Assembly (NCBI RefSeq): GCF_025717005.1
Contig: NZ_JAOVZU010000004.1
Coordinates: forward strand, 186,001 to 250,000
DNA: 64,000 bases
Direction: 5' to 3'
DNA from: Actinotalea endophytica
GTDB lineage: Bacteria; Actinomycetota; Actinomycetes; Actinomycetales; Cellulomonadaceae
Each line of letters begins with the position of its first letter. Position 1 is the stretch's first letter. Below the pieces are notes generated by a model that had not been told where the DNA came from, did not search any database, and saw only the letters and a program-made list of their open reading frames with translations. Shown here in pieces: positions 20,459-36,441 of the stretch. The position numbers and the translations under genes were made by a program.

Positions 20459-20580
20459 GGGTTGCCGTCCTCTCATCACGGAGGCACCCATCCGGTCGGG
20501 CCGCCCCCACACGACTCGGCGAACCTAGGACCGCGCTCTGTGCCGGGTGACGGTGCCGGCCATGCGTCGGCTGTGAGCTC

Positions 20581-21858
20581 TCAGCGCGACGGCTCGGGGT
20601 GGTCCCCGCCCAGCACCGCGGTGACCAGCGGCACCCCCGGCCGGTAGGCGACGTGCACCGGGTCGGGGGCGTCGAGCACCTGGAGGTCGGCGCGCGCACC
20701 CACCGCGACCCGGCCGACGTCGTCGCGACGCAGCGCCGCCGCGCCGCCCGCGGTCGCGGCCCAGACCGCCTCCTCGGGTGTCATCCGCATCTGGATCACC
20801 GCGAGCGCCACCGCGAGCGGCATCGACGACGAGTAGCACGAACCGGGGTTGCAGTCGCTCGCGAGCGCCACCGTCGCGCCGGCGTCGAGCAGCGCGCGGG
20901 CGTCCGGCATCGGCCGCCGGGTGGACAGCTCGACCACCGGCAGCAGGGTCGCGACGGTGCCGCGACCGGCCGCCCCGGCCTCGGTGGGGGCGCCACCCGC
21001 CGCGACCGGAGCCGCCCCGGCGAGCAGCGCGACGTCCTCGGCGTCCAGCTCGGTGCAGTGGTCCACGCTCGCGGCCCCGAGCTCGACCGCGAGGCCGACC
21101 GCGCCGGTCCGGGACAGCTGGTGGCCGTGCACGCGCAGGCCGAGCCCGTGGGCCGAACCCGCCTCGAGCACGCGGCGCGACTGGTCCAGGTCGAAGGCGC
21201 CGACCTCGCAGAACACGTCGATCCACCGGGCCAGCGGGGCGCACGCGTCCAGCATCGGCCCGGTGACCAGGTCGACGTAGCCGTCCGGGTCGGCCGCGTG
21301 CTCCGCCGGGACCACGTGCGCGCCGAGGAACGTCGTCTCGGTGGTCAGCTCGCGCGCGATCGCCAGCGACCGTCGCTCGGTCTCGACGTCCAGCCCGTAG
21401 CCGGACTTGATCTCGACCGTCGTGGTGCCCTGCCGGCGCATCTCGGTCAGCAGGGCGGCCGCGCGGGTCCGCAGCGTCTCGTCGCTCGCGGCGCGGGTCG
21501 CGGCGACCGTGGTGCGGATGCCGCCCGCGCTGTACGGCTGGTCGGTCATCCGGGCGGCGAACTCGGCCGACCGGTCGCCCGCGAACACCAGGTGGGCGTG
21601 CGAGTCGACCCAGCCCGGCAGCACCGTGCGCCCGTGCGCGCCCCACCGTGCGTCGCACGCGGGGGCGTCCGCCGACCGGCCGACCCACGCGACCCGGCCG
21701 TCCACGACGACCACCGCTGCGTCGCTCAGCGGCGCCGTCCACGAGCCGCGCGCGGGGTCGTTGGTGACCAGCACGCCGATGTCGTCGACCAGCAGGGACC
21801 GGCCCGCCGCGGGCGCCGGGATCTCGACCGGCCGCGCGAGGTCGTCGGACGGGCTCAT
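20581..21858 (-). CDS. hutI: Imidazolonepropionase
   Basis: Hydrolyses 4-imidazolone-5-propanoate to N-formimidoyl-L-glutamate, the third step of histidine degradation. 425 residues of the amidohydrolase superfamily: metal-binding HAH in [21 protein letters not shown], then [29 protein letters not shown] and SVDHCTEL, and a late catalytic Asp in [17 protein letters not shown]. The start ATG overlaps the HutF stop by 4 bases (ATGA), and this is the last gene of the seven-gene operon reading leftward from 28976. Confidence 0.94.
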
Positions 21859-23231
21859 GACGCCCCATCCTGCAGCGCCGCGAGCGCCCGGGTGAGCAGC
21901 TCGGCCGGGTCGCCGGCCACGGATCGTCCGTCCCGCACCACGTGCCGTCCGCCGACCACGGTGTGCCGCACGTCGGTGGCCGACGCCGCCAGCCACAGCT
22001 GGTCCGGGCGGGCTCCCGTGGTCCGCACCGAGCCCGGGTCGAGCACCGCGAGGTCGCAGGGTGCGCCCACCTCGATCCGGCCGCCGTCCCAGCCCAGTGC
22101 GGCGTACCCGTCCGCCGTGGCGGCGGCCAGCAGCGCGGCCGGGGTGAACGTGCCGCGTCGGCCGGTGCGGAGCCGTTCGTGCATCTCCAGGCCCCGCGCC
22201 TCCTCGAGCATGTCGAGCACCGCGTGCTGGTCGGTGCCGAGGCTCAGCGGGACCCCGGCTGCGGCCAGGTCGCCACCGCGGCCCGGGCCGTCGGCCAGGT
22301 CCCGTTCGGTCGTCGGGCACGCACACACACCGGAGCCGCGCTCGGCGAGCAGCGCGACGTCGGCGTCCGAGACGTGGTTGGCGTGCACGGCGACCAGGTC
22401 AGGGCCGAGCAGCCCGTGCCGGTCCAGCAGGCCGACCGGCGTGACACCGTGCTCGGCCAGGCACCCGGAGACCTCGGCGGGCTGCTCGGCCACGTGCACG
22501 TGCAGCGGGCCGCTCTCGCCGAGCGCGGCGACCGCGGTCAGGTCGGCGGCGCCGACGGCCCGCACCGAGTGCAGCGCGCGGCCGGCGCGCAGGTGGGGTG
22601 CGGCGGGCAGTGCCGCGCGCCGCGCGGCCCACGCCTCGACGGAGCCGTCGTCGAACCGGCGCTGCTCGGCGGACAGCGGCACCGGCCGGCCGTCGGCGTC
22701 CACGCCGCCGCGCCGGTAGAGCGTGTCGAGCAGGGTGATCCGCAGCCCGGCCCGCGCGGCCGCCTCGACCAGCGCCTCGGCCATCGCGGTGGACGGCCGG
22801 TAGGGCGTGCCGTCCGGGTGGTGGTGCACGTAGTGGAACTCGCCCACCACGCCCACGCCGGACAGCACGGCCTCCGTGTACACGGCCGTGGCCAGCTCGA
22901 GGTACGTCTCGGGCGTGAGGCTCGCCGCGACCGCGTACATCTGCTCGCGCCAGGTCCAGAAGGTGCCGCCCTCGGCGTGGGTCCGTCCGCGCAGGGCGCG
23001 GTGGAACGCGTGCGAGTGCGCGTCGGCGAACGCGGGCAGCCCGAGCCCGTCGAGCACGGTGTCGCCGGGCGCCGGTTCGACGCCCTCGTCGATCCCGGTC
23101 ACGACGCCGCCGCCGTGCCGGACCCGGACCCCGGTGGCGACCCGGCCGGCCGGGGGCCGGCCGAGCCAGGCCGTGGGGAGCCAGTAGGCGCCGTCGGTGC
23201 CGGCCGGGCGGGCCGCGGTCGGGTGGGTCAT
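21855..23231 (-). CDS. hutF: Formimidoylglutamate deiminase
   Basis: Removes ammonia from N-formimidoyl-L-glutamate to give N-formyl-L-glutamate (the HutF/HutG branch of the pathway). 458 residues of the amidohydrolase superfamily with the metal site [14 protein letters not shown] near residue 75, [42 protein letters not shown] and a catalytic Asp in [13 protein letters not shown]. It overlaps neighbours by 4 bases on each side. Presence of hutF shows the organism uses the formylglutamate route rather than formiminoglutamase. Confidence 0.94.
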
Positions 23232-24628
23232 CCCTGCCAGCCGGAGCCGGCGCGGTCGCGGATGATCTCGACGAGCGCGGCGGCGCCGAGCCGGGCGTCG
23301 TCGTCCTCGGCGTGCTCGCCCGGGGCATGCGAGATCCCGGACGGGTTGCGCACCACGAGCATCGCGGTGGGCACCCCGGCCTCGGCCAGCACCCCGGCGT
23401 CGTGCCCGGCACCGGACGGCAGGCTAGGCAGCAACGGTCGCCCGTCCGCGCCCGCGGGCGCCCCCGCGGCGGCGAGCGCCACGCGGACGGGGCCCGCCAG
23501 ACGGGCTCCGAGCCCGGCGTCGAACCGCGTGACCGGGGTCCAGGACTCGCGCACCCCGGCCGTCCCCAGCGCCGCCGCGACCTCCGCGACGGCCGCGTCG
23601 ACCGCGACCGGGTCGGCGCCGCGCGCATCGAGCCAGAAGGTGGCCGCGGACGGGATCGCGTTCACCGCCCCAGGATCCACCCGGACCTTGCCGACGGTGG
23701 CGAGCACGCCGTGCCGCTCGGCGGCGCGCCGTGCGGCCAGGACGCCCTCGGCGAGCGCGAGCATCGGGTCCGTGCGCCGGTCCAGCGGTGTCGTCCCGGC
23801 GTGGTTGCCCTCGCCGACGAGGTCGAACCGCCAGCGTCCGTGCGGCCAGATCTCGGTGAGCAGACCGAGCGGTGCGCCCGCCTCGGCCAGCCCGAGCGCA
23901 CCGTGCCGGCACCCTCCGGAGGTCGGCAGGTGCCCCTGCTCGACGTGCAGCTCGACGGCCTCGCCGATCCGGGCGACGCGGACCGGGTCGGGACCCCAGG
24001 CGGCGGGGTCGGCGCCGACCCGACGCGCGGCGTCCGCAGCGGTCACGCCGTCCGGGTCGGCCAAGGCGCCCGCGCGGGCAGGGTCCAACGCTCCGGTCAT
24101 CAGGCGCGACCCGGCGCAGGCGATCCCGAACCGGCCGCCCTCCTCCTCGGCGAACACGGGGACGACCACCGGGCGGTGCGGCCTGAACCCCTCGGCGCGC
24201 AGCCGGGAGACCGCGGCCAGCGCGCTCACCACACCCAACGGCCCGTCGTACGCGCCACCGGCCGGCACCGAGTCCAGGTGCGAACCGACCTGCAGCACCG
24301 CTCCGGGCTCGTCGGCACCGGGCAGGTCGGCGCCCCACCAGGCCCACAGGTTGCCGTTCCGGTCGGTCTCGACGTCCAGGCCGAGTCGCGTGGCGTGCTC
24401 GGTGAACCAGTCGCGCAGGGTGAGCTCGGCGTCGGTGTGCACCAGCCGGGACCAGCCGCCGCCGGCCGCGCGGCCGACGTCGGCGATCTCGGCGAGCAGC
24501 GCCACCGGGTCCAGGTCCCCGAGAGCCGCCACCGAGGCCGGCACTGACGCCGGCACGGGGCCGGCCGCCGTCCCCGGTCCGGTCGCCCCGGCCCCGGGCA
24601 CGGCGGCACCAGGTGTCGCGGCGGCCAT
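23228..24628 (-). CDS. M20-family amidohydrolase (allantoate/N-carbamoyl type), putative N-formylglutamate hydrolase
   Basis: 466-residue di-metal M20 peptidase-fold enzyme resembling allantoate amidohydrolase and N-carbamoyl-L-amino-acid hydrolase. Metal-site landmarks: VGSHLDSVPAGGAYDGPLGVV (His/Asp), FAEEEGGRFGIACAGSRL (Glu pair), ELHVEQGHLP and LPSGAGHDAGVLAEAGVPTAMLVVRN, all as in the family. It sits between hutU and hutF, overlapping both. There is no hutG-type N-formylglutamate deformylase in the operon, so this enzyme is the best candidate for hydrolysing HutF's product to glutamate and formate (inference from position; the same arrangement is known in streptomycetes). ATG 24628 or the adjacent GTG 24631. 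Confidence 0.85.
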   Translation of the reverse strand: MAAATPGAAVPGAGATGPGTAAGPVPASVPASVAALGDLDPVALLAEIADVGRAAGGGWSRLVHTDAELTLRDWFTEHATRLGLDVETDRNGNLWAWWGADLPGADEPGAVLQVGSHLDSVPAGGAYDGPLGVVSALAAVSRLRAEGFRPHRPVVVPVFAEEEGGRFGIACAGSRLMTGALDPARAGALADPDGVTAADAARRVGADPAAWGPDPVRVARIGEAVELHVEQGHLPTSGGCRHGALGLAEAGAPLGLLTEIWPHGRWRFDLVGEGNHAGTTPLDRRTDPMLALAEGVLAARRAAERHGVLATVGKVRVDPGAVNAIPSAATFWLDARGADPVAVDAAVAEVAAALGTAGVRESWTPVTRFDAGLGARLAGPVRVALAAAGAPAGADGRPLLPSLPSGAGHDAGVLAEAGVPTAMLVVRNPSGISHAPGEHAEDDDARLGAAALVEIIRDRAGSGWQG

Positions 24629-26301
24629 CACCGGTCCTCGCGCATCGGGATGCGCACGCCGCGCGCCTGCGCGGTCTCGATCGCCTCGGGGTACCCCGCG
24701 TCGACGTGCCGGATCACGCCCATGCCGGGGTCGTTGGTCAGCACCCGCGCGATCTTCTCGGCCGCGAGCGGCGTGCCGTCGGCGACGGTGACCTGACCGG
24801 CGTGGATGGACCGGCCGATGCCGACACCGCCGCCGTGGTGGATCGACACCCAGGTCGCACCCGACGCCGTGTTGATCATGGCGTTGAGCAGCGGCCAGTC
24901 GGCGATCGCGTCGGACCCGTCGCGCATCGCCTCGGTCTCCCGGTAGGGGCTGGCGACCGAGCCGGAGTCCAGGTGGTCGCGGCCGATCACGATCGGCGCG
25001 GACACCTCACCGGAGGCGACCAGCTCGTTGAACCGCAGGCCGGCACGGTCCCGCTCGCCGTACCCGAGCCAGCAGATCCGGGCCGGCAGACCCTGGAACG
25101 CGACCTTCTCCTGGGCGAGCCGGATCCAGCGGGTCAGCGACTCGTTCTCCGGGAACAGGTCGAGGATCGCCTTGTCCGTGGCGTAGATGTCCTTCGGGTC
25201 GCCGGACAGCGCGGCCCAGCGGAACGGACCCTTGCCCTCGCAGAACAGCGGCCGGATGTAGGCGGGCACGAAGCCCGGGAACGCGAACGCGTCGGAGTAG
25301 CCCGCGGCCTTGGCCTCGGTGCGGAGGTTGTTGCCGTAGTCGAAGACCTCGGCGCCGGCCCGCTGGAACCCGACCATCGCCTCGACGTGGCGGGCCATCG
25401 ACTCGCGCGCGGCCTTGGCGAAGCCGACCGGGTCGGCCTCGCGTGCCGCGTGCCAGTCCTCGAACGCGACCTCGAGCGGCAGGTAGGCGAGCGGGTCGTG
25501 CGCCGAGGTCTGGTCGGTCACGACGTCGATCTCGGCGCCGCCGGCGAGCAGCGTTGGGACGACGTCGGCGCTGTTGCCGAGCACGCCGATGCTCAGCGGG
25601 CGCCGCGCGCGCTTGGCCTCCCCGGCCAGCTCGAGCGCGTGCTCGAGCGAGTCGGCCATGACGTCCAGGTACCGCTGCTCGATGCGCCGGCGGATCCGGG
25701 ACTCGTCGACGTCGACGCAGATCGCCACGCCCCCGTTCATGGTGACCGCGAGCGGCTGGGCGCCGCCCATGCCGCCGAGGCCACCGGTCAGGGTGACGGT
25801 GCCCTCGAGCGAGCCGCCGAACCGCTTGTGCGCGACCGCCGCGAACGTCTCGTAGGTCCCCTGCAGGATCCCCTGCGTGCCGATGTAGATCCACGAGCCC
25901 GCGGTCATCTGGCCGTAGGCCGTCAGGCCGAGCGCCTCGAGCCGGCGGAACTCGTCCCAGGTCGCCCAGTCGCCGACCAGGTTGGAGTTCGCCAGGATCA
26001 CCCGCGGCGCCCACTCGTGCGTGCGCATCACGCCGACCGGCCGGCCGGACTGGACGAGCATCGTCTCGTCGTCGGCGAGCGTGGTCAGGGTGCGCACCAA
26101 GGCTGCATAGGACGGCCAGTCCCGCGCGGCCTTGCCGGAGCCGCCGTACACCACGAGCTCGTCGGGGTGCTCGGCGACCTCGGGGTCGAGGTTGTTCTGC
26201 AGCATCCGCAGCGCGGCCTCCTGGCCCCAGCCGCGGGCGGTGCGGGTGGTGCCGCGCGGGGCGCGCACGGTGTGCGGGACGGACAGGTCGGTGATCGTCA
26301 T
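24628..26301 (-). CDS. hutU: Urocanate hydratase
   Basis: Converts urocanate to imidazolonepropionate using NAD+ as electrophilic cofactor, step two of histidine degradation. 557 residues, the normal length. Diagnostic blocks: [78 protein letters not shown] and the C-terminal [13 protein letters not shown]. Start ATG 26301 with GAGGAG 5 bases upstream; its stop overlaps the M20 gene start by one base (TGATG). Confidence 0.97.
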
Positions 26302-26341
26302 CGGGTCTCCTCGGGCGGTGGGTGGCCGGGCGCGCGGGGGC

Positions 26342-27922
26342 TCAGTCGAGCCCGGCGCCGGACTCGGCCAGGGCGGTGCGGGCGACGTCGAGCAGCTCGC
26401 CGTCGCGCAGCAGCGCGACCGCGGCCTCGATGTCGGGTGACAGGTAGCGGTCCGGGCCGGGGCCCGGGACGCGGGTGCGGAGCAGGTCGCGGACCGCACG
26501 CGCGGCGGGCGACGGGTGGGCGTCCGGCTCGGTGCGCTCGCGCAGGTCGAACGCGCGGGCCGCCGTGAGGATCTCGATCGCCACCACGTCGCGCAGGCCG
26601 TCCAGGGCCCTGCGCAGCTTCAGGCCGGCCGACCACCCCATCGACACATGGTCCTCCTGCATGGCCGAGGACGGGATCGAGTCGACCGACGCCGGGTTCG
26701 CGAGGCGCTTGAGCTCCGAGACGATCCCGGCCTGGGTGTACTGCGCGATCATGTGGCCGGAGTCCACGCCGGGGTCGTCGGCGAGGAACGGCGGCAGCCC
26801 GTGGCTGCGCGCGGTGTCGAGCATCCGGTCGGTACGCCGCTCGCTGATGGACGCGAGGTCGGCGACCGCGATCGCCAGGAAGTCCAGCACGTAGGCGACC
26901 GGGGCACCGTGGAAGTTCCCGTTCGACTCCAGCCGCCCGTCGAGCGTGATGACCGGGTTGTCCACGGCCGAGGCGAGCTCGCGGGCGGCCACTCGCAGCG
27001 CATGGTCGAGGGTGTCCCGCGCCGCACCGTGCACCTGGGGTGCGCAGCGCAGCGAGTAGGCGTCCTGCACGCGGGTGAAGACCCCGGCACCGCGGTGCGT
27101 GACGAGGTCTGACCCGGCGAGCACGGCGGCGACGTTGGCGGCCGAGACCGCCTGGCCGGGGTGCGGGCGCAGCGTCTGCAGGTCGGCGGCGAACACGCTC
27201 GACGAACCCCGCAGGGCCTCGACGCTCATCGCGGCGGCCAGGTCGGCCGCCGACAGGAGCTCGGCCAGGTCGGCCGCGGCCAGCAGCAGCATGCCGAGCA
27301 TGCCGTCGGTGCCGTTGATCAGGGCGAGGCCCTCCTTCTCGACCAGCGTGAGCGGCTCGATGCCGGCGGCCGACAGGGCGTCCGCCGCCGGCAGGAGCCG
27401 GTCCTCGGCGTCCCGCACCGTGCCCTCCCCCATCGCCGCGAGCGCGCAGTGCGCCAGCGGGGACAGGTCGCCGGAGCACCCGAGCGAGCCGTGCTCGCGC
27501 ACGACGGGCGTGATGCCGGCGTCGAGGATCGCGGCATAGGTGCGGGCGACCACGGGTCGCACCCCGGTCCGCCCGGTGCACAGCGTCGACAGGCGCAGCA
27601 GCATGAGCGCTCGGACCACTTCGCGCGGCACCTCCGCACCGGAGCCCGCCGCGTGCGACCGCACCAGCGACCGCTGCAGGTCCTGACGGCGCTCCGGCGG
27701 GATGCTGGTCGTCGCGAGCGCTCCGAAGCCGGTGGAGACGCCGTAGTGCGGTCGCACGTCGGCAGCCAGCTCCTCGATCACCGCCCGTCCGGCGGCGAGC
27801 GCGTCGAGCGCCTCGGCGCTGAGCGCCACGCGGGCGCCGTCCCGGGCGACGGCGAGGACGTCCGCGGGGGCGAGAGGTCCGGTGCCGACCGTGACGGTCG
27901 GCGGTGCGGCGAGCGAGGTCAT
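26342..27922 (-). CDS. hutH: Histidine ammonia-lyase
   Basis: Deaminates L-histidine to urocanate, the committed step. 526 residues. The catalytic MIO prosthetic group forms from an internal tripeptide, here Cys149-Ser150-Gly151 ([16 protein letters not shown]) instead of the more common Ala-Ser-Gly; Ser and Gly are the essential parts, and Cys variants exist in actinobacterial HutH, so activity is expected. Other landmarks: [11 protein letters not shown] near residue 53, [16 protein letters not shown] and [15 protein letters not shown]. Start ATG 27922, with AAGGA close upstream. It follows two cucumopine-synthase-like genes after 111 bases. Confidence 0.96.
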
Positions 27923-28033
27923 GATGTCCTTCTCAGTCTGGTCGCCCTGTCGGAGGAGGGCGGGTGTGGGGTGCGGGATCCGACGACGGCGGGACCCGGG
28001 CACCGCTCCGGCTGGGGCGGGCCCGGGTCGGGC

Positions 28034-28465
28034 TCAGGCGGCGTCGGCGATCCGCAGCTCGACGACCTGGCCCTGCTGGAGCCAGTTGCGGTGGCCGGCG
28101 AGCGCGAGCTCCAGCTCGCCGGACACGACCTCGCCGATGTAGCTGATCTTCAGCGGCTCGTCCGCGAGGTCGTCGCCGTACACGACGCAGAACTGCTGGC
28201 GCGGGTTGTACCAGCAGACCGAGCCGCGGGCGTAGCCCTTCTCCTCGCGCCGCATCGCTCCGACCTCCTCGGTCAGGTAGACGTTCTCCCAGGGCGCGAC
28301 GATCGGCATCGTCCAGAAGACCATCTCTCCGATGATCTTGCCGTGCTGCAGGATGCCCTTCTGCGGCAGCTGCGCTCGGAGCTCGGCGGCGATGCGCGGA
28401 ACCTTGTCCTCGAAGACCTCGATGGTGCAGGTGTCCACACCGTCGACGCTCATGATCAGGTGCAC
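28034..28465 (-). CDS. DUF3830/cyclophilin-like protein, cucumopine-synthase N-half-like (hut operon copy)
   Basis: 143 residues, GTG start at 28465 (GAGGAG 7 bases upstream; an internal ATG at residue 5 has no better site). It resembles DUF3830, a cyclophilin-like barrel that also makes the N-terminal domain of cucumopine synthase, the enzyme that joins histidine and 2-oxoglutarate by a Pictet-Spengler-type ring closure. Shared with its paralog at 30962-31411: ILQHGKIIGE, PWENVYLTEEVGAMRREEKG, VCWYNPRQQF, YGDDLADEPLK, IGEVVSGELELALAGHRNW and QGQVVELR. Cytoplasmic. It lies between the helical-bundle gene and hutH. I infer a two-subunit enzyme acting on a histidine-derived compound; direction (making or opening the ring) is unknown. 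Confidence 0.65.
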   Translation of the reverse strand: MHLIMSVDGVDTCTIEVFEDKVPRIAAELRAQLPQKGILQHGKIIGEMVFWTMPIVAPWENVYLTEEVGAMRREEKGYARGSVCWYNPRQQFCVVYGDDLADEPLKISYIGEVVSGELELALAGHRNWLQQGQVVELRIADAA

Positions 28466-28499
28466 GGGTCTCTCCTCTCGGGGCAGTTCGTGGGTCGGG

Positions 28500-28976
28500 T
28501 CAGGCTTCGACGCGCTTGAAGCCGTTGGTCACGCCCCAGGGGAAGACGGCGTCGACCCACATGTGGAGCTTGTTGACGTAGCTGATGGCCGAGCGGATCA
28601 GCCGGAGCAGCTCGTCGGTGTCGGTGGCGGTCGCGCTGGCCTCGACGAAGCGCTCGATCAGCGCACCGGCCGCGGGCAGGCCGACGAAGTCGAAGAACGC
28701 GGCCTTGTAGCCCACGATCTGCTTGAGCAGCAGCTGGAGGGTTCGCAGGTCCAGGCTCTCGGTCTCGGAGACCTCGATGATCCCCCAGAGCAGCTCGTCG
28801 GAGAGGGTGCGCGCCTCGCCCTCGGCGAAGATCAGCGTCGTCAGGTACTGCCCGTGGGTCCCGGTGCGCCGCGGGACGATGCCGCGTCCGAGATCGGCCA
28901 CCTCCTTCGGGCACTCCAGCCAGATGCGGTCTCGCTCGGCGTCGAGCTCGGCGATGACCTCGTCGATCAGGCTCAC
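28500..28976 (-). CDS. Helical-bundle protein, cucumopine-synthase C-domain-like (hut operon copy)
   Basis: 158 residues, predicted all-helical. GTG start at 28976 with AGGAG 6 bases upstream; it is the first gene of the hut operon. The sequence matches what I recall of the cucumopine synthase C-terminal helical-bundle family: ELDAERDRIWLECP, GRGIVPRRTGTHGQYLTTLIFAEGEARTLSDELLWGIIE, IVGYKAAFFDFVGLPAAGALIERF and YVNKLHMWVDAVFPWGVTNGF. The same blocks recur in the paralog at 31471-31980. It always appears here immediately before a DUF3830 gene, so the two probably form one heteromeric enzyme equivalent to the two-domain synthase. Divergent from an IclR regulator. Confidence 0.62.
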   Translation of the reverse strand: MSLIDEVIAELDAERDRIWLECPKEVADLGRGIVPRRTGTHGQYLTTLIFAEGEARTLSDELLWGIIEVSETESLDLRTLQLLLKQIVGYKAAFFDFVGLPAAGALIERFVEASATATDTDELLRLIRSAISYVNKLHMWVDAVFPWGVTNGFKRVEA

Positions 28977-29013
28977 TGCGGTCTCCTTCCGGTGTCGTAC
29001 CTCCAGTGTGAGA

Positions 29014-29053
29014 CCGGGATTCGCCAATCCGGAAGAATGAATGCGAGCATTCT
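29014..29053. promoter_or_regulatory. Paired palindromes in the IclR-hut divergent region
   Basis: Two inverted repeats lie side by side: GGATT-CGCC-AATCC (29017-29030, with CCGG extending each side) and GAATGC-GA-GCATTC (29039-29052). The region is the control gap between the hut operon (start 28976) and the IclR gene (start 29112), so these are the best candidates for the IclR operator. No convincing -35/-10 pair is visible for the leftward operon. Confidence 0.55.
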
Positions 29054-29111
29054 GTCTCGTCGGCGAGACGTCGGCAGGCGGGTGTTTCGTGGCGGTGACC
29101 GGGAGGTGGCG

Positions 29112-29909
29112 ATGACCGACGTGCCGGCGGCTCGAGCCGTCCTGCAGGTGCTCCGCGTCCTGCGCGCGGCGGGCCAACCGGTGTCCGCCGGCGAGATCGT
29201 CCGGGAGCTCGACCTGCCCCGGTCGTCGGTCTACAAGCTGCTCGGCGCGCTGCGCGACGAGGGCTTCGTCATCCACCTGCCCGAGGAGCGGCGCTACGCC
29301 CTGTCCCTGCGCGCCGCGCGGCTCGTCGCCGACGACCTCACGGACCTGCGCCTGGAACGCATGGCCGTCCCGCTGCTGCGGCGGCTGGTCAGGAGGGTCA
29401 ACGGCCCGGTCGTCGCGCATCTGTCGCTGCTGCGCGGTGCGGACGTGGTCTACCGCGCGACGGTGGACGACCCCGCCGGGCCCCGGCTGCTGGTGGGACC
29501 CGGCATCCACCTGCCGGCGCACCTCACCGCGTCGGGGCGGGCGATGCTGGCCCACCTGCCGACGGCCCAGGTCAGGGCGACCTACCCGACCGCGGACGCC
29601 CTGGTGCACCGGACCGGGCGCGGGCCGCGGACCCCGAGCGGGCTGCGACGGCTCCTGGAGGGTGTCGCCGAACGAGGGTGGGCCAGGGAGGTCGGCGAGG
29701 TGGTCGCCGACCTCGCGTCGGTCGCGGTCGCGGTGCTCGACGACGAGCACAACCCGGTCGCGGCGGTCGGACTGACCTGGGTGGGCACGGAGGTGCCGGC
29801 GCGGATCGGCACCTGGCAGCACGGTGCCGTGCCGACCCAGGCGGAGCTCGCGGCGCAGACCCGGATCACCGCGGACGCGCTGGCGATGCGGGTGCGCGGA
29901 CGCCTCTGA
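29112..29909 (+). CDS. IclR-family transcriptional regulator of the hut operon
   Basis: 265 residues: an N-terminal winged helix (VLQVLRVLRAAGQPVSAGEIVRELDLPRSSVYKLLGALRDEGFV, about 10-55) and the C-terminal IclR effector domain (VVYRATVDDPAGPRLLVGPGIHLPAHLTASGRAMLAHL; VADLASVAVAVLDDEHNPVAAVGLTWVG). IclR effector domains bind small organic acids or aromatic compounds. ATG 29112 has GGGAGG 5-6 bases upstream. It is divergent from the cucumopine-like pair and hut genes, and I infer that it controls them. Streptomyces hut genes are not classically IclR-controlled, so the effector could be the opine-like substrate rather than urocanate. Confidence 0.9.
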   Translation: MTDVPAARAVLQVLRVLRAAGQPVSAGEIVRELDLPRSSVYKLLGALRDEGFVIHLPEERRYALSLRAARLVADDLTDLRLERMAVPLLRRLVRRVNGPVVAHLSLLRGADVVYRATVDDPAGPRLLVGPGIHLPAHLTASGRAMLAHLPTAQVRATYPTADALVHRTGRGPRTPSGLRRLLEGVAERGWAREVGEVVADLASVAVAVLDDEHNPVAAVGLTWVGTEVPARIGTWQHGAVPTQAELAAQTRITADALAMRVRGRL

Positions 29910-29966
29910 AGCGCCCCGGCCGGCTCGGCCGGACGCACACCGCGGCCGGCGGGGCGGGCCTTCCGC

Positions 29967-30848
29967 TCAGACGAACAGGTCGAGCGACGCGACGTACCGC
30001 TCGTACTCCTCCAGACGCTTCTGGGTCGCCACCTCGTCGACCGCGCAGATCGCCTCGAGCAGCATCAGCGAGAGGGCCAGCGGCACGGCGTGCGAGTCGA
30101 ACGACAGCGAGGACTCGACGGGCGCGTAGAGCACGTGGTCCGCGTACCGGGTCGCGGGTGAGGTCGGCGTGTCGGTGATGCAGACGACGGTCATGCCGAA
30201 CCCACGGGCGATCTCCAGGAGCTTGATGGTCTCCTTGGGGTACCGCGGGAGCAGGAAGGCCAGCAGCGCCGAGCCGCCGGCGGTGTGGGCGTGCATCAGG
30301 GCGTCGACCATCGCGACCGTGCCGACGCTGGTCAGCGCGCGGACGTCGGGCAGCGCCTTGGAGGCGAAGTAGCCGAAGTACTGCGCGGCCGGGCCCGCGG
30401 ACCGCAGACCGAGCACGCTCAGCGGCCGGCTCGCGGCCAGGACCTCGGCGGCCGCGCGCAGCGGGGCCGGGTCGGCCATCTGACGTCGCAGCTCCTCCAT
30501 CGCGGCCATCTCGTAGGTGACCGACCGCTGCCACATGTTGAGGTTGGTGAGCTCCGCGGTCCGCTCGTCGTCGGACGGGAGCGCCCGGCGGATCGCGTCC
30601 CGGAACTGCGGGTACCCCTCGAAGCCCACCGCGTTCGCGAACCGCGTCACCGAGGGCTGGCTGACGTGGGCGAGGTCGGCGAGGTCGTTGATCGTCAGGT
30701 ACGGCGCGTCCTGCGCATTGGCGATGAGGCAGTTCATGACCCGGCGTTGCGTCGCGGTCAGCTGCCTGCCTGCCGCGAGCTCGAACAGGAACTGTCGTCG
30801 CGCTCGGACCTGTGGGTCGTCCGACGCGGCGATCTCTTCGGGGCTCAT
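29967..30848 (-). CDS. RpiR/MurR-family transcriptional regulator
   Basis: 293 residues: an N-terminal HTH of the RpiR type (LTATQRRVMNCLIANAQDAPYLTINDLADLAHVSQPSVTRFANAVGFEGYPQFRDAI) followed by a SIS (phosphosugar-isomerase fold) domain (about 135-270; LSVLGLRSAGPAAQYFGYFASKAL, GMTVVCITDTPTSPATRYADHVLYAPVES). RpiR regulators usually sense sugar phosphates, but many control amino-acid-like importers. ATG 30848 with GGAGG 6 bases upstream. It is the last gene of the leftward operon that starts at the binding protein (36294), separated from DUF3830 by a strong hairpin, and probably controls that operon. Confidence 0.9.
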   Translation of the reverse strand: MSPEEIAASDDPQVRARRQFLFELAAGRQLTATQRRVMNCLIANAQDAPYLTINDLADLAHVSQPSVTRFANAVGFEGYPQFRDAIRRALPSDDERTAELTNLNMWQRSVTYEMAAMEELRRQMADPAPLRAAAEVLAASRPLSVLGLRSAGPAAQYFGYFASKALPDVRALTSVGTVAMVDALMHAHTAGGSALLAFLLPRYPKETIKLLEIARGFGMTVVCITDTPTSPATRYADHVLYAPVESSLSFDSHAVPLALSLMLLEAICAVDEVATQKRLEEYERYVASLDLFV

Positions 30849-30920
30849 CTTCGACCTCCATCGTCCCCCGCCGAGGCTCCGGCGAGGCTAACGCTACGTG
30901 TCACCTTGATCGGATGCGCC

Positions 30921-30963
30921 GAGACGCAGGGGCGGCGCGCCGGGCGCGCCGCCCCTGCGTCTC
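30921..30963 (-). terminator. Long hairpin at end of DUF3830 gene
   Basis: A perfect 19-bp stem (arms 30921-30939 and 30945-30963) with a 5-base loop; the stop codon of the DUF3830 gene (30962) lies in the stem. It separates the opine-like operon from the RpiR gene, so either terminates the operon or sets lower expression of the regulator. Confidence 0.75.
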
Positions 30964-31411
30964 AGGCGACCGCGGACTCGGTGCTCTCCTCGTGCAGCCG
31001 GAGCTCGACGATCCCGCCCTGACGCCGCCAGGTGCGCTCGCCGAGCAGGGCCAGCTCCAGCCCGCCGTCGACGACCTCGCCGATCAGGCTGTTCAGCAGC
31101 GGCTCCACGGCGAGGTCCTCGCCGTAGGTCATGACGAGCTGCTGGCGCGGGCTGTAGAAGCAGACGGTCCCGACGATCGTGCCCTTCTCCGCCCGGCGCA
31201 TCCGGCCGATCTCCTCGGTCAGGTAGAGGTTCTCCCACGGCACGACGAAGGGCAGGGTGGCGAAGAGCTGGTCGCCGACGAGCTTGGCGTGCTGCAGCAC
31301 GGTCCGGATCGGGAGCTGCTCCCGGAACACCTTGGCGGTCTCCGGGACCTTGTCGTCCCAGATCTCGAAGGTGCAGATCTTCTTGTCGTCCACGATGTAG
31401 TCGACGAGCAC
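30962..31411 (-). CDS. DUF3830/cyclophilin-like protein, cucumopine-synthase N-half-like (transport operon copy)
   Basis: 149 residues from GTG 31411 (AAGGAAGG upstream). Paralog of the hut-operon protein at 28034-28465: both share a TFEI-type first strand followed by DDKVPE, LQHAKLVGDQ, PWENLYLTEEIGRMRRAEKG, VCFYSPRQQL, YGEDLAVEPL, LIGEVVDGGLELALLGERTW and GGIVELR. The family is DUF3830 with a cyclophilin-like fold. It follows the helical-bundle gene by 59 bases and would form the same kind of two-subunit enzyme. In this operon the partners are two SDRs and an amino-acid ABC importer, so a taken-up amino-acid conjugate is the likely substrate. Conserved Arg, Tyr and Glu residues could form the active site; none is proven. 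Confidence 0.65.
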   Translation of the reverse strand: MLVDYIVDDKKICTFEIWDDKVPETAKVFREQLPIRTVLQHAKLVGDQLFATLPFVVPWENLYLTEEIGRMRRAEKGTIVGTVCFYSPRQQLVMTYGEDLAVEPLLNSLIGEVVDGGLELALLGERTWRRQGGIVELRLHEESTESAVA

Positions 31412-31470
31412 GGTGGTGCCTTCCTTCTCGGGGTGGATGCGCTGGTCGCGCTGGTCTGTGGGGGCCGGGC

Positions 31471-31980
31471 TCAGGACGCCTTGAGGCCTTCGCCGGTCTC
31501 GAGCCCGCTGTCGTCCCGCGGGAACGCGTTGGCCAGGCCCCACGGGAAGACGAAGTCGATCCACATGTGCAGCCGGTTGGCGTAGGACAGCGCCGCGCCG
31601 GTCACCGCGATGAACTCGTCCAGGTCCGCGGCGGCCCGTGCGCCCTCGGCGTAGCGGTGGGTCCACCGGCACGCGACCGGCAGCCCGACGAAGTCGAAGA
31701 AGTCCGCCTTGTAGTCGACGATCTGGGTGACGAACATCTTGAGCGTCTCGAGATCCGCGTCGCCCTTGCGGGCGATCTCCAGCAGACCCCAGAGGATCTC
31801 GTCGGACAGGGTGCGGGCCTCGCCCTCGGCGAACAGCAGGGACGTGAAGTACTGGGCCTTGGGGCCGGTCCCGCGCGGCAGGACGCCCTTGCCGAGGGAC
31901 TGGACGTCCTCGGGAAGCGTCAGCCAGATCCTCTCGCGCTCGCCGTCCAGCTCGGCGATCACGTCGTGAACGAGCGACAT
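31471..31980 (-). CDS. Helical-bundle protein, cucumopine-synthase C-domain-like (transport operon copy)
   Basis: 169 residues, ATG 31980 with GGAGGAG 5 bases upstream. It aligns along its length with 28500-28976: ELDGERERIWLTLP, GKGVLPRGTGPKAQYFTSLLFAEGEARTLSDEILWGLLEIA, IVDYKADFFDFVGLPVAC and YANRLHMWIDFVFPWGLANAF. Predicted all-helical and cytoplasmic. The pairing with DUF3830 is preserved in both loci, which supports an obligate complex. The divergence between the two copies suggests different substrates. Confidence 0.62.
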   Translation of the reverse strand: MSLVHDVIAELDGERERIWLTLPEDVQSLGKGVLPRGTGPKAQYFTSLLFAEGEARTLSDEILWGLLEIARKGDADLETLKMFVTQIVDYKADFFDFVGLPVACRWTHRYAEGARAAADLDEFIAVTGAALSYANRLHMWIDFVFPWGLANAFPRDDSGLETGEGLKAS

Positions 31981-32020
31981 CGGTTCTCCTCCAGGTGAGA
32001 TGGGTGGGGTTCTGGGGTCA

Positions 32021-32803
32021 TCAGACGAGGGCCTTGCCCCCGTCGATGCGCAGCGTGGTTCCGGTGACCTGCAGCGAGGACGTGCTCAGGTGCAGCAACG
32101 CCTCCCACACCGCGTCGAGGTCGATCTCGCGGAGCCGGTGGCCCGCGACGTCGACCGTTCCGTCCTCGTGCGGCTCCACCTCGCCGCGCCCCGCACGGAG
32201 CGCGTCGTTGGTGCCGTCGTCGGACCGGAAGAACTGGGACGGTGCGATCGCGTTGCACGCGACGACCGGTGCGAGCGCGACCGCCAGCTGTTCCATCAGC
32301 CGGGCGAGCGCGGACTTCGCCACCGAGTGCGGGACGAACGTGGGCCAGGCCTCGGTCAGCGAGTTGCCGACCATCGCCACGATCCGGCCCTCGCCCTGCT
32401 CGAGCATCACCCGGGCCGCCGCCTGGCTCAGGAAGAACGGGCCCTTGAGGTTCACACCCAGGGACGAGTCCCACGCCTGCTCGTCGACCTCGAGCCACGG
32501 CGCGGGCCGGAACGTCGACGCGTTGTGCACCAGCACGTCCAGGCGCCCGAAGGCCGCCGTCGTCTCGGCGACGAGCGTGCGGCAGGCCGCGACGTCGGTC
32601 ACGTCGGCCTCGACGGCGACCGCGCGTCCACCCGCCGCCGCGATGCCCCGCACGACCTCGGCGGCGTCGGCGCCCTGGGTCGGGAGGTGGTTGACCACGA
32701 CGGCCGCCCCGGCCGCGGCGTAGCGCTCGACGAACCGGCGACCGGCACGGTCCGCGGCTCCGGTGACCAGGACGACCCGGCCGTCCATCGGCGCGGTCAC
32801 CAC
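32021..32803 (-). CDS. SDR-family oxidoreductase lacking the catalytic Tyr
   Basis: 260-residue classical short-chain dehydrogenase/reductase fold. The cofactor motif is TGAADRAGRRF (residues about 14-24), the NAG-like block is NASTF, and the active-site segment reads S148 ... H159-S-V-A-K163. The usual YxxxK is therefore HxxxK: the general-base Tyr is His. The C-terminus LRIDGGKALV is normal for SDRs. Such a change often means altered chemistry or a non-oxidoreductive role. GTG start at 32803 (GGAGG 6 bases upstream) overlaps the upstream SDR gene by 7 bases. Operon: ABC importer, SDR, this SDR, cucumopine-like pair. Possible dehydrogenase or partner subunit for the upstream SDR. Confidence 0.82.
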   Translation of the reverse strand: MVTAPMDGRVVLVTGAADRAGRRFVERYAAAGAAVVVNHLPTQGADAAEVVRGIAAAGGRAVAVEADVTDVAACRTLVAETTAAFGRLDVLVHNASTFRPAPWLEVDEQAWDSSLGVNLKGPFFLSQAAARVMLEQGEGRIVAMVGNSLTEAWPTFVPHSVAKSALARLMEQLAVALAPVVACNAIAPSQFFRSDDGTNDALRAGRGEVEPHEDGTVDVAGHRLREIDLDAVWEALLHLSTSSLQVTGTTLRIDGGKALV

Positions 32804-33537
32804 GGTTCACCTCCCGCGACGGCGAGCACCTGGCCGGTGAGCGCGGCGCTCGACGGGCCGAGCAGCAGCCCGACCGTCCGGGCGACGTCCGCCGGGGTGG
32901 GCAGCGGCAGCACCCGGCGCAGCCTCGAGACCTGCTCGAGGGCGGCGAACGCGGCGTCCTCCTCGGCGAGGTCGCCGGCGCCGATGTCGACCCGGCCGGG
33001 GGCGACCACGTTGACTCGGACGCCGTGCGGCCCCTCCTCGAGCGCGAGCGTCCGGCACGCGGACTCGGCGGCGGCCTTCCCGAGCGAGTAGAGCGCCAGG
33101 CCCGGGCCGCGGCGGTGCACGAGCGCCCCGCTGACGAAGACGACGGACCCTCGGGTGCTCCTCAGCTGCGGCAGCGCGGCGCGGCACAGCCGCAGGTGGA
33201 CGCGCACGCCGTCGAGCGAGCGCTCGAGGTCGTCGTCGTCGTAGGCGTCGACCGGGGCCGAGCCGTGCGCCGGCCAGGCACAGTTCACCACGGCGGTGAG
33301 CGGCCCGCTGAGCGCCTCGGCCGCCTCGCCGACGACCCGTCGGGACTCGGCGAGCAGGTCACCGCCCACCGCGACGGCCGACCGGCCGTCGGCCCGCGCG
33401 GCAGCAACCGTCGCGGCGGCGCCGTCGGCATCCCGCCGGTAGTGCACCGCGACGGCGAACCCCTCGTCGAGCAGCTCGGCGACGACGGCCCGGCCGAGCG
33501 GACCGGTCCCGCCGGCGACCAGCACACGACCGCTCAT
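32797..33537 (-). CDS. SDR-family NAD(P)-dependent oxidoreductase
   Basis: 246-residue short-chain dehydrogenase. Cofactor motif AGGTGPLGRAV at the N-terminus, active-site Ser in VVFVSGALV, catalytic YSLGK near residue 152, and C-terminal LTGQVLAVAGGEPW. Unlike its neighbour the Tyr and Lys are intact. The NAG block is replaced by NCAW. Arg residues after beta-2 (YRRDADG) favour NADP. ATG overlaps the ATPase stop by 4 bases. It likely oxidises or reduces the compound imported by the adjacent amino-acid-type transporter. Confidence 0.87.
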   Translation of the reverse strand: MSGRVLVAGGTGPLGRAVVAELLDEGFAVAVHYRRDADGAAATVAAARADGRSAVAVGGDLLAESRRVVGEAAEALSGPLTAVVNCAWPAHGSAPVDAYDDDDLERSLDGVRVHLRLCRAALPQLRSTRGSVVFVSGALVHRRGPGLALYSLGKAAAESACRTLALEEGPHGVRVNVVAPGRVDIGAGDLAEEDAAFAALEQVSRLRRVLPLPTPADVARTVGLLLGPSSAALTGQVLAVAGGEPW

Positions 33538-34319
33538 CGGGCGCCGCCGGCCACGAAAGCCTGGACCCGCTCGGACGCGCCGGACCCGAGGATCTCGTCG
33601 ACCGAGCCCGCAGCGACGATCCGGCCGGCCTCCATGAACACGACCTGGTCGGCCACGTCCCGGGCGAAGCCGATCTCGTGCGTGACCACGATCATCGTCG
33701 TCTCGCCCTCGTCGGCGAGGTCGCGCATGACGGTCAGCACCTCACCGACCAGCTCGGGGTCGAGCGCGGACGTCGGCTCGTCGAAGAGCACCAGGCTCGG
33801 GTCCATGGCCAGGGCCCGCGCGATGGCCACGCGCTGCTGCTGACCGCCGGACAGCTGCGCCGGGTAGGCCGCCGCCTTGTCCTCGAGGCCGACCCGGGCC
33901 AGCAGCTCGCGGCCGCGCTCGACCGCTGCCGACCGCGACTTCTTGGCGACGACCACCTGCGCCCGCACGACGTTCTCGAGCGCCGTCATGTGCGGGAACA
34001 GGTTGAAGTCCTGGAAGACCATGCCGATGTGCCGCCGCTGGCGGCACAGCTCGCGGTCGGTGAGCTCGTGGAACCGGCCGTCGGTCATCCGGCGGTGGCC
34101 GATCAGCTCGTCGCCGAGCCAGATGGTCCCGTGCTCGACGGGCACGAGCCGGTTGATCGTGCGCAGCAGCGTCGACTTGCCGGAGCCGGACGGACCGAGC
34201 AGGACGGTGACGGTGCCGGCGGGGACGTCCAGGCTCACCCCGTCGAGGACGCGGGTCGGGCCGTACGACGCCGCGACGTCGCGGATGTGGACCGCGTGGC
34301 GGTCGTGGGTGGCGGTCAT
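33534..34319 (-). CDS. Polar-amino-acid-type ABC transporter ATP-binding protein
   Basis: 261-residue ATPase of the HisP/GlnQ type. Walker A LLGPSGSGKSTLLR near residue 42, Q-loop GMVFQDFNLFPHMTALENV, signature LSGGQQQRVAIARALAMDP, Walker B VLFDEPTSALDPELV and switch His in VTHEIGFA. ATG 34319 overlaps the permease stop by 4 bases. Energises the importer formed with the permease (34316-35311) and binding protein (35398-36294). Confidence 0.95.
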   Translation of the reverse strand: MTATHDRHAVHIRDVAASYGPTRVLDGVSLDVPAGTVTVLLGPSGSGKSTLLRTINRLVPVEHGTIWLGDELIGHRRMTDGRFHELTDRELCRQRRHIGMVFQDFNLFPHMTALENVVRAQVVVAKKSRSAAVERGRELLARVGLEDKAAAYPAQLSGGQQQRVAIARALAMDPSLVLFDEPTSALDPELVGEVLTVMRDLADEGETTMIVVTHEIGFARDVADQVVFMEAGRIVAAGSVDEILGSGASERVQAFVAGGAR

Positions 34320-35311
34320 GCCTGGTCCTCCCGGGATCCGGCGGTCGTCGTCGTGGCGGCGGCGTCGGAGCGCCTCGGCAGGCGCAGCGCGAAGACGCGC
34401 TCGGTCGCGGCAGGCATCGAGGTGGATCCCCGGCCGAAGTAGCGCTCGAGGTGGCCCTGGCCCCAGGACAGCAGGGAGGTCAGGAACAGGTACCAGATCG
34501 AGACGCAGATCAGCAGCGGGATGGTCTGGAAGTTGCGCGCGTAGATGGTCTGCGCGGAGTACATGAGGTCGGCCAGCGCGATGACCGAGACCATCGAGGT
34601 CATCTTGAGCATGCCGATCGTCTCGTTGCCGGTGGGCGGGACGATCACGCGCATCGCCTGCGGCAGCACGATCTGCCGGAAGGACTCGGTGCGGGTCATC
34701 CCGAGCGACGCCGCGGCCTCGGACTGCCCACGCGGGACGGCGAGGATCCCGGCGCGGACGATCTCGGAGAGGTAGGCGCCCTCGTTGAGGCCGAGGCCGA
34801 GGATCGCTGCGCTGAGCGGGGTGATGACGTCGTTGACGTTGGCCGACCACAGGGTCGGGCCGCCCGGGATCGCGATCGAGAGCTCCGGGTAGAGGTAGGC
34901 GAGGTTGTACCAGAAGACCAGCTGGACGAGGATCGGCGTCCCTCGGAAGAACCAGATGTAGACGCCGGCGACCCCGCGGAAGATCCGGCTGTGCGAGACC
35001 CGCATCGAGGCGAGCAGGATGCCGATCGCCAGGCCGATCACCATCGCCACGACGGTGAGGAACAGGGTCATCCAGAGGCCGTTGAGGATCGTCTCCGAGA
35101 AGAGGTACGTGAAGACGACGTCCCAGCCGAACCGCTCGTTGGTGATCAGCGAGTGGGCGAGGGCACCGAGCAGCAGCACGATGACCGCGTACCCCGCCCA
35201 CCTCCCGCGGTGGCGCAGCGGCACCGTGACGACGTCCGGGACCCGGAACGTGTCCGAGGTCGCCGGCGTCGAGGTTGCGCTCGATCCGGACGGCTTCTGG
35301 GAAGAGGGCAT
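34316..35311 (-). CDS. Polar-amino-acid-type ABC transporter permease
   Basis: 331-residue permease of the HisM/GlnP family with a cytoplasmic, Ser/Thr/Pro-rich N-terminus, about five membrane segments, the family block GVYIWFFRGTPILVQLVFWYNLAYLYPE and the EAA-type loop AASLGMTRTESFRQIVLPQAMRVIVPPTGNE. A single permease gene implies a homodimer. It lies 86 bases downstream of the binding protein, with a strong hairpin in the gap. Confidence 0.93.
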   Translation of the reverse strand: MPSSQKPSGSSATSTPATSDTFRVPDVVTVPLRHRGRWAGYAVIVLLLGALAHSLITNERFGWDVVFTYLFSETILNGLWMTLFLTVVAMVIGLAIGILLASMRVSHSRIFRGVAGVYIWFFRGTPILVQLVFWYNLAYLYPELSIAIPGGPTLWSANVNDVITPLSAAILGLGLNEGAYLSEIVRAGILAVPRGQSEAAASLGMTRTESFRQIVLPQAMRVIVPPTGNETIGMLKMTSMVSVIALADLMYSAQTIYARNFQTIPLLICVSIWYLFLTSLLSWGQGHLERYFGRGSTSMPAATERVFALRLPRRSDAAATTTTAGSREDQA

Positions 35312-35350
35312 GGCGGTTCCTTAGCGGAGACGGTCTGGTGCGGCCGCGGG

Positions 35351-35390
35351 CGCGGGGGCGGGGAGGGAGACAGGGCTCCCCGCCCCCGCG
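35351..35390 (-). terminator. Intra-operon hairpin between binding protein and permease
   Basis: A perfect 14-bp stem (CGCGGGGGCGGGGA / TCCCCGCCCCCGCG) with a 12-base loop, 8 bases after the binding-protein stop and before the permease start. It probably causes partial termination or protects the upstream mRNA, so the binding protein is made in excess. Confidence 0.7.
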
Positions 35391-35397
35391 TCCGGCG

Positions 35398-36294
35398 TCA
35401 CTCGCCGATCGGGTTCGTGGTGGCGAGGTTGATGCCGGGCTCCGTCCGAGCCCGCGGGGAGATGTCCCAGTCGTCGAGGATCGACTCGTAGGTGCCGTCG
35501 TCGACGATCTCCTGCAGTCCCTGCTGCCAGGCCTGGATCATCGCGTCGTCGTCCTGGTTGAAGATCATGCCGAGGTAGAGCTTCGGGAGCTCGGAGTTGT
35601 GGTGGACGACGAGGTCCACCGGCGAGGACTGGTTCAGGTAGGCCGCGGCTGCGGTGTCCTGCACGACGAAGTCGACGCGGCCCGAGTACAGGGCGTTGTA
35701 GGTGTCCGCGGCCGAGGGGAACTCGTTGACCGTCACCTCGTCGAGGCCCGCGTCGGCGCACTGCGGGTTGATGGTGTCGGTGATGATCGACACGGTGTCG
35801 AAGCCGGTCTGGGCCCCCATCGACTCACCGCACACGGACAGCGGGTCGGTGTCGTTGATCGGGCCGTCGTAGTCGGCCGTGGTGATGACCGCGGTCTCGG
35901 CGTAGATGAAGTCGAGGAACGTCACCTGCTCCTCGCGCTCGGCGCGGTCGGAGATGCACTCCATCGCGAGGTCGTAACGACCGCTCTGGACGCCGGGGAT
36001 GAGCGAGTCGAAGTCGGTGTTCTCGACCTCGAGCGTCACGCCGATCCGGTCCGCGATCGCGTTCCAGATGTCCGGCTCGAAGCCGACCATCTCGCCGGAG
36101 TCGTCGATCCACTCGCACGGCGGGTAGTTGGCGTCGGTGGCGAGCGTCACGGTGGTGCCCGCGATGCCGTCCGAGCTCGCGTCGTCGGTGGCGGTCGTGG
36201 TGGCGGTGCCGTCGGCGCTGGCACTGCTGCAGGCGGCGAGCCCGAAGGCCATGCCGATGACTGTCGTCATGGTGATGGTGCGGTGTCGAAGCAC
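35398..36294 (-). CDS. Amino-acid-type substrate-binding lipoprotein (SBP family 3)
   Basis: 298 residues from GTG 36294 (GGGAG 5 bases upstream; the longer frame to 36420 reads through an Arg/Pro-rich non-signal region). The signal peptide ends in a lipobox (LAAC). The mature protein shows the family 3 pattern: TVTLATDANYPPCEWIDDSGEMVGFEPDIWNAIADRIG, then AMECISDRAEREEQVTFLDFIY, in which the conserved Arg binds a ligand alpha-carboxylate, and NPQCADAGLDEVTVNEFPSAADTYNALYSGRVDFVVQDTAAAAYL. An amino acid or amino-acid conjugate such as an opine is therefore the expected ligand. First gene of the importer/SDR/cucumopine-like operon. Confidence 0.92.
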   Translation of the reverse strand: MLRHRTITMTTVIGMAFGLAACSSASADGTATTTATDDASSDGIAGTTVTLATDANYPPCEWIDDSGEMVGFEPDIWNAIADRIGVTLEVENTDFDSLIPGVQSGRYDLAMECISDRAEREEQVTFLDFIYAETAVITTADYDGPINDTDPLSVCGESMGAQTGFDTVSIITDTINPQCADAGLDEVTVNEFPSAADTYNALYSGRVDFVVQDTAAAAYLNQSSPVDLVVHHNSELPKLYLGMIFNQDDDAMIQAWQQGLQEIVDDGTYESILDDWDISPRARTEPGINLATTNPIGE

Positions 36295-36441
36295 GTTCGC
36301 TCCCAGGGTCGGTCGGTGACGGGCGGGGGTGGTCCGCGGGCCTCGGGGCCCATCCGGCACGACGATCCTCTGGAATGAAACTTTGCCGAGCAAGACTCCT
36401 CTGAATGGATTTACACACACGTAACCGCGACGCGGCTGATT

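Follow-up and report, generated by a model that had tools for sequence, protein, structure and literature searches.

Why should two genes related to a ring-forming enzyme stand at the head of an operon for histidine degradation? Pictet-Spenglerases are known as alkaloid builders, and cucumopine synthase, a member of the plant-tumour enzyme family considered here, which couples histidine or tryptophan to a second molecule, joins histidine with 2-oxoglutarate. An earlier note on this locus of the soil bacterium Actinotalea endophytica had read the first two genes of a hut operon as the helical-bundle and cyclophilin-like halves of such an enzyme and proposed that a histidine-derived ring compound is opened to histidine, which is then degraded. 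From the analysis of the whole 64,000-nucleotide stretch of DNA (the window), we consider it likely that the two gene products, HB1 and D1, form a two-subunit retro-Pictet-Spenglerase: a ring compound derived from histidine would be imported, opened by this enzyme and its histidine passed to HutH.

Two small genes precede hutH

HB1 and D1 are followed on the same (minus) strand by HutH, HutU, an M20-family amidohydrolase, HutF and HutI (Table 1), in agreement with the seven leftward genes and the extent of the pair (28034-28976) given in the earlier note. Both start with GTG and have a third-position G+C of 0.96, a strong coding bias, and a stop codon followed by a 34 bp gap separates them as two genes. 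Gaps of 111 bp (D1-HutH) and 40 bp (HutH-HutU) come next and, by their coordinates, the last three junctions of the operon, after HutU, overlap. No sigma-70-like promoter or intrinsic terminator was found around the pair (27850-29150). HutH, HutU, HutI and HutF score over curated cut-offs, HutF through NF006681; against TIGR02022 HutF reaches 405 bits, just under the cut-off of 413. Judged by gene position, the M20 enzyme possibly supplies the N-formylglutamate deformylase step. A gene for a subtype A tannase lies immediately downstream of HutI (window 18536-20512).

Table 1 Features of the pair-hut operon and of the neighbouring block, with window coordinates and the basis of each assignment
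Feature	Position	Strand	Basis
HutI, imidazolonepropionase	20581..21858	minus	TIGR01224 343 bits, cut-off 298
HutF, formimidoylglutamate deiminase	21855..23231	minus	NF006681 542 bits, cut-off 362
M20-family amidohydrolase	23228..24631	minus	NF006770 (allantoate amidohydrolase) 482 bits, cut-off 372
HutU, urocanate hydratase	24628..26301	minus	TIGR01228 916 bits, cut-off 375
HutH, histidine ammonia-lyase	26342..27922	minus	TIGR01225 620 bits, cut-off 539
D1, cyclophilin-like (DUF3830-related) subunit with invariant H41, Y96, E103	28034..28465	minus	Foldseek; Pfam below cut-offs
HB1, helical-bundle subunit of split Pictet-Spenglerase-like pair	28500..28976	minus	PF18631, PDB 3x27, model, Foldseek
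Putative IclR operator GTCTCGNNNNCGAGAC between IclR and HB1	29054..29069		palindrome, genome scan
IclR-type regulator, divergent from pair-hut operon	29091..29909	plus	Pfam IclR_C 8.6e-20, HTH_IclR 4.3e-11
RpiR/MurR-family regulator adjoining pair 2	29967..30848	minus	NCBIfam RpiR-family matches, all under cut-offs
D2, paralogous cyclophilin-like subunit, GTG start	30962..31411	minus	DUF3830 3e-5
HB2, paralogous helical-bundle subunit	31471..31980	minus	PF18631 1.7e-43
SDR1, SDR-fold protein, His for usual catalytic Tyr	32021..32803	minus	NCBIfam SDR, shown matches below cut-offs
SDR2, SDR-fold protein, Tyr kept in window	32797..33537	minus	NCBIfam SDR/FabG-like, shown matches below cut-offs
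ABC importer ATPase, polar amino-acid type	33534..34310	minus	best NCBIfam EhuA 295 bits, below cut-off
ABC importer permease, polar amino-acid type	34316..35311	minus	TIGR01726 81 bits, cut-off 42
ABC importer substrate-binding protein, amino-acid type	35398..36420	minus	TIGR01096 115 bits, below cut-off

HB1 and D1 are split halves of a Pictet-Spenglerase family

In the HMM search that the earlier note had proposed, HB1 matched PF18631 (Cucumopine_C) with 150 bits (5.4e-44), over the Pfam cut-off of 27, and a sequence search found PDB entry 3x27 at 8.2e-17. D1 reached 22.6 bits (1.1e-4) against Cyclophil_like2, 0.1 bit under the cut-off of 22.7, and 21.6 bits (2.3e-4) against DUF3830, under the cut-off of 26; alone it had no PDB match by sequence. 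A profile built from 44 D sequences matched cyclophilin-like proteins with 1e-5 as its best value, and KslB weakly at 0.0027. AlphaFold models of HB1 and D1 (pLDDT 90.5 and 92.7) both had McbB as their top Foldseek match. The D1 model matched McbB at 9.2e-8 (3x27_D, TMq 0.75) and KslB at 1.4e-7 (9ns6_B, TMq 0.77), along with other cyclophilin-like proteins (3kop, 1.2e-7; TM1367, 5.6e-7), and it is by structure that D1 is assigned its cyclophilin-like domain. Ranks 1-31 for the HB1 model were exclusively McbB or KslB chains (TMq 0.84 to McbB), and the next match had an E-value of 0.83. The family relation given in the earlier note is therefore right for both halves, since HB1 is clear by sequence and D1, weak by profile, is clear by structure. 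HB1 and D1 are split halves of the cucumopine-synthase/McbB/KslB-type Pictet-Spenglerase family, encoded as separate proteins, whereas the solved members of this family are single chains.

Of the 51 locus pairs, 44 entered the structure alignment for HB and 42 that for D, together with both pairs of the window. Residues H41, Y96 and E103 of D are invariant in all 60 of the 60 aligned pairs, and E103 of D1 aligned with the glutamate of the YGxLTE motif (TEP/TEY) of McbB-type proteins. By residue count it apparently corresponds to McbB Glu97, and we presume it to be the catalytic glutamate of the HB-D pairs. Glu97 completes aromatization in McbB, as stated in a passage of PMC9366743. McbB and KslB resemble HB1 and D1 in their two domains, their folds and the presumed catalytic glutamate, but differ in being single chains that, by their PDB titles, act on tryptophan in the forward direction, KslB on L-Trp and alpha-ketoglutaric acid. 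Further McbB residues are Arg72 and His87; among the sequences aligned, this histidine was kept only in the McbB-like one.

The D proteins also carry a family-specific WEN segment that is absent from the fused members, from pRi1724 (a mikimopine Ri plasmid) and from Sodalis. This segment, the split chain and the place at the head of hut would fit a fold reused for another step of histidine breakdown, such as hydrolysis or isomerisation of an intermediate, instead of C-C cleavage of an adduct. That reading is very improbable in our judgement: HutH, HutU, HutI and HutF are already in the operon, eight hut loci of congeners do without the pair, and the presumed catalytic glutamate is kept.

A paralogous pair lies behind an importer and two SDR genes

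The paralogous pair mentioned in the earlier note is real. HB2 and D2 are 55% identical to HB1 and D1, over 155 (HB) and 137 (D) residues, and these two HB genes are the only PF18631 genes of the genome; D2 scored 24.5 bits against DUF3830 (cut-off 26) on a slightly longer reading of the gene. Pair 2 sits 2 kb upstream of pair 1, behind an amino-acid-type ABC importer and the two SDR genes. A tree was built from 60 pairs, without locus L059, whose frames are broken, and without the additional HB gene of L018, for which the same strand yielded no D. In this tree pair 1 with its Mycolicibacterium homologue (L016) and pair 2 formed separate clades, each with support 100.

The complete block is found in Microbacterium and Amnibacterium (L013, L015, L017) in the order IclR, importer-SDR2-SDR1-HB2-D2-HB1-D1-HutH-HutU-M20-HutF-HutI, and L014 has a partial block, its front part with only HutH and M20 of the hut genes. 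The window has the same genes as the complete blocks, but with the RpiR and IclR genes between the two pairs; its importer substrate-binding protein matched the L013 homologue at 51%. An RpiR gene also adjoins the pair in L020, L028 and L040 and is annotated in Sodalis (L007). Read by eye, a long G+C-rich inverted repeat follows D2 directly (30921-30963), before RpiR, and could be a transcription end or a regulatory hairpin between the two.

When the window SDR proteins were aligned with four orthologues, SDR1 had His at the catalytic Tyr position in 5/5 sequences and SDR2 had Phe there in 3/5. Canonical SDR oxidation of a side chain is weakened by these replacements.

Linkage to hut genes recurs among relatives in three phyla

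When an alignment of three sequences was scanned against 84,980 species genomes, 47 loci were obtained; one is from Chloroflexi and the others are from Actinomycetota and Pseudomonadota. All 47 have a D gene next to HB, with HB first in 46; L059 is frame-broken and the D of L052 is cut by a contig end. HutH, HutU, HutF or HutI lay within 10 kb or less on either side in 15 loci (L013, L014, L015, L017, L018, L036, L037, L040, L044, L045, L047, L049, L052, L054, L056), and no hut gene was present within that distance in the other 32, some of which are cut by contig ends. One gene each from nine of the 15 was checked against NCBIfam, and eight reached curated cut-offs; the HutH of L049, included in this check, is cut by a contig end. 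For one hut cluster per 4.25-Mb genome, linkage would be expected in about 0.3 of 47 loci, which are not independent of one another. Parsimony on the 60-pair tree, in which a locus truncated by a contig end was scored as unlinked, required 14 changes, suggesting that hut linkage was gained or lost repeatedly.

Arrangements differ among the hut-linked loci. The Chloroflexi locus (L047) reads HB-D-peptide-type importer-HutU-HutH-HutI, the hut genes of Frankia (L040) are divergent from importer-HB-D-RpiR, and the hutH-U-M20-F-I order of the window is also present in L040 and L054. Three hut-linked alphaproteobacterial loci (L036, L037, L045), and no others of the 47, have a Dak1-Dak2 kinase of the dihydroxyacetone kinase family (L037:4325-6160) divergent from the importer-HB-D genes, which hints at a ketose or hydroxy-aldehyde as the carbonyl partner. 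In Bauldia, a second HB (L018:10663-11253) adjoins a window-type pair and hut genes; its best but weak match (27%) is the HB of pRi1724.

A different catabolic module, with a GlnA-like ligase, an aldo-keto reductase and a Rieske oxygenase, surrounds the pair in 21 of the 47 loci (L019, L021-L026, L029-L035, L038, L039, L041-L043, L046, L053), the reductase and the Rieske oxygenase being found in 20 each. Mostly it also includes a luciferase-like monooxygenase, an alpha/beta hydrolase and an ABC importer; its hosts are Enterobacterales, Pseudomonas and Rhodobacterales, and none of the 21 has hut genes. Not all members, therefore, need have a substrate that contains histidine. The Mycolicibacterium homologue of pair 1 (L016; 70% and 82% identity) likewise has no hut gene within 10 kb and no palindrome of the GTCTCGNNNNCGAGAC type, and in place of hut its neighbours (L016:9090-15423) are IclR, a luciferase-like monooxygenase and a FecCD-type importer. 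Both the module and L016 would suit a pair whose substrate is a heterocycle not derived from histidine, such as one from another aromatic amine, with hut linkage reflecting shared regulation or niche only. We regard this as unlikely, as hut linkage recurs across clades and arrangements and the pair heads the operon both in the window and in the Chloroflexi locus, where the importer separates it from the hut genes.

Opine plasmids and biosynthetic-looking settings

Agrobacterium/Rhizobium plasmids offer close parallels. Homologues of the family lie on pAtAg67 among hutH, hutC, hutF, hutI, hutG, hutU, HyuA/HyuB and importer genes, and similar regions occur on pRi2659 and A. vitis pAvF25c. The pAtAg67 homologues are one D-HB and one HB-D fusion, with the same protein accessions as on pAvF25c, from which the domain order was taken. 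A passage in PMC10745273, citing Hooykaas et al. 2022, describes pAtAg67 as having a cucumopine-catabolic region and as being without Vir and T-DNA. Like the window, all three plasmids have two family homologues in the neighbourhood of hut and importer genes and of a regulator. They differ from it in having fused domains instead of split pairs, an annotated HutC regulator instead of IclR and RpiR, and oxoprolinase-type HyuA/HyuB genes; the window has two SDR proteins and no oxoprolinase. Split pairs are found on pRi1724 and Sodalis pHS1, which, like the window, have two separate genes with the same domains and an amine/amino-acid ABC importer nearby, and on pHS1 also RpiR and hutH. Here, however, D precedes HB, the HB proteins are 21-23% identical to HB1, and HyuA and HyuB genes are present, one of the two being truncated in each case where the examined stretch ends.

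HyuA/HyuB-type proteins have been suggested, in a passage of PMC6733357, to open lactam opines. No such oxoprolinase was found among the genes assigned at 20581-36420, and none of the 47 related loci shows an oxoprolinase match. The window block thus differs from the cucumopine and mikimopine regions, and its substrate may not be cucumopine itself; cucumopine as a candidate is weakened. For 2-oxoglutarate as the partner there was no support beyond homology.

All relatives characterised to our knowledge run forwards (McbB and KslB with Trp), and the McbB and KslB structures are titled by forward substrates and products. In Paraburkholderia, the neighbours of a fused HB-D protein (L006:7980-8966) are hisG, hisC and a gene for the regulatory subunit of an ATP phosphoribosyltransferase, a setting that looks like one for synthesis of a histidine-derived compound. 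Another fused relative, in Nonomuraea, lies beside what by eye look like FAD-oxidase and P450 reading frames. These settings would agree with a window pair that works forwards: it would condense histidine and a carbonyl compound, for synthesis or for detoxification, and its place in the hut operon would serve to draw on or balance histidine. The window pair is surrounded by an importer and a full degradation operon, and its plasmid relatives lie in published cucumopine-catabolic DNA; on these grounds we think forward operation improbable.

A palindrome between IclR and the operon

Among the 19 genomes of the genus, eight have HutH, the A. endophytica genome included. In seven congeners, eight hut loci have IclR beside HutH and no HB-D pair, and PF18631 matches are absent from these seven genomes. 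PF18631 is rare, occurring in 1/19 genomes of the genus (its own), 2/221 of the family, 3/396 of the order over cut-off and 1/396 of a phylum sample, the A. endophytica genome being counted in each. The IclR-hut operons of the congeners share with the window the IclR type, the hutH-hutU order and the palindrome, and differ from it in having no pair.

The palindrome GTCTCGNNNNCGAGAC at 29054-29069 is the sole perfect copy in the 4.25-Mb genome, which has 45 places with one mismatch. Two hut loci (L064 and L065) have the same perfect palindrome between IclR and HutH; it stands before HutH in the congeners and before HB1 in the window. Of 18 regions chosen for comparison, 16 had a looser form, GTCY-N8-RGAC, where shuffling of single bases predicts 0.3; the exceptions were L016 and the IclR flank of L040. 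This form was drawn from an earlier region set, three D1-HutH gaps of which were left out of the 18, and four of the five regions new to the 18 have it. It was not found in front of the window importer operon. As a mere motif the palindrome is not enriched within the window, where up to two mismatches gave 12 places (16.4 expected) and GTCY-N8-RGAC five (10.4 expected). Since the loose forms are not enriched there, the argument from the palindrome lies in its exact form and place.

A proposed route from ring compound to histidine

The interpretation given in the earlier note is supported as to family and pathway, while for direction and substrate, as for the carbonyl partner and complex formation, we infer from circumstantial evidence. 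According to our proposal, HB1 and D1 would each contribute a subunit to a single enzyme of the McbB/KslB/cucumopine-synthase family. The ABC importer would take up a histidine-derived tetrahydro-imidazopyridine (cucumopine-, mikimopine- or spinacine-like), on which HB1-D1 would run the Pictet-Spengler reaction backwards. Glu103 of D1 would protonate the imidazole carbon, the ring C-C bond would break to give an iminium, and water would split this into histidine and a carbonyl compound. Histidine would then be degraded by HutH, HutU, HutI, HutF and the M20 enzyme. Pair 2 probably handles another stereoisomer, an analogue or an earlier step, and the pair and the hut genes would be co-induced through the hut IclR regulator; we infer these roles, that of the SDR proteins and the binding of IclR from the gene context.

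What emerges here is a split Pictet-Spenglerase-type enzyme that is joined to a hut operon and probably works backwards. The literature searched, which leaves out Hooykaas et al. 2022, yielded no description of a split HB-D pair in a hut operon. More speculatively, the pairs could form a widespread class of two-subunit retro-Pictet-Spenglerases, by which amino acids are released from naturally occurring rings of an amino acid and a carbonyl compound outside crown-gall ecology. For the hut-linked branch, the substrate could then be an adduct, not yet described, of histidine with a small ketose or hydroxy-aldehyde; in alphaproteobacteria the carbonyl part would go to the dihydroxyacetone-type kinase.

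If the proposal is true, a dedicated Pictet-Spengler enzyme, made of two proteins and placed under the control of the histidine regulon, is run backwards for nutrition. Histidine-derived ring compounds would then be an overlooked food source for bacteria, with relatives of the pair in three phyla, and the substrate prediction made here from the genes is testable.
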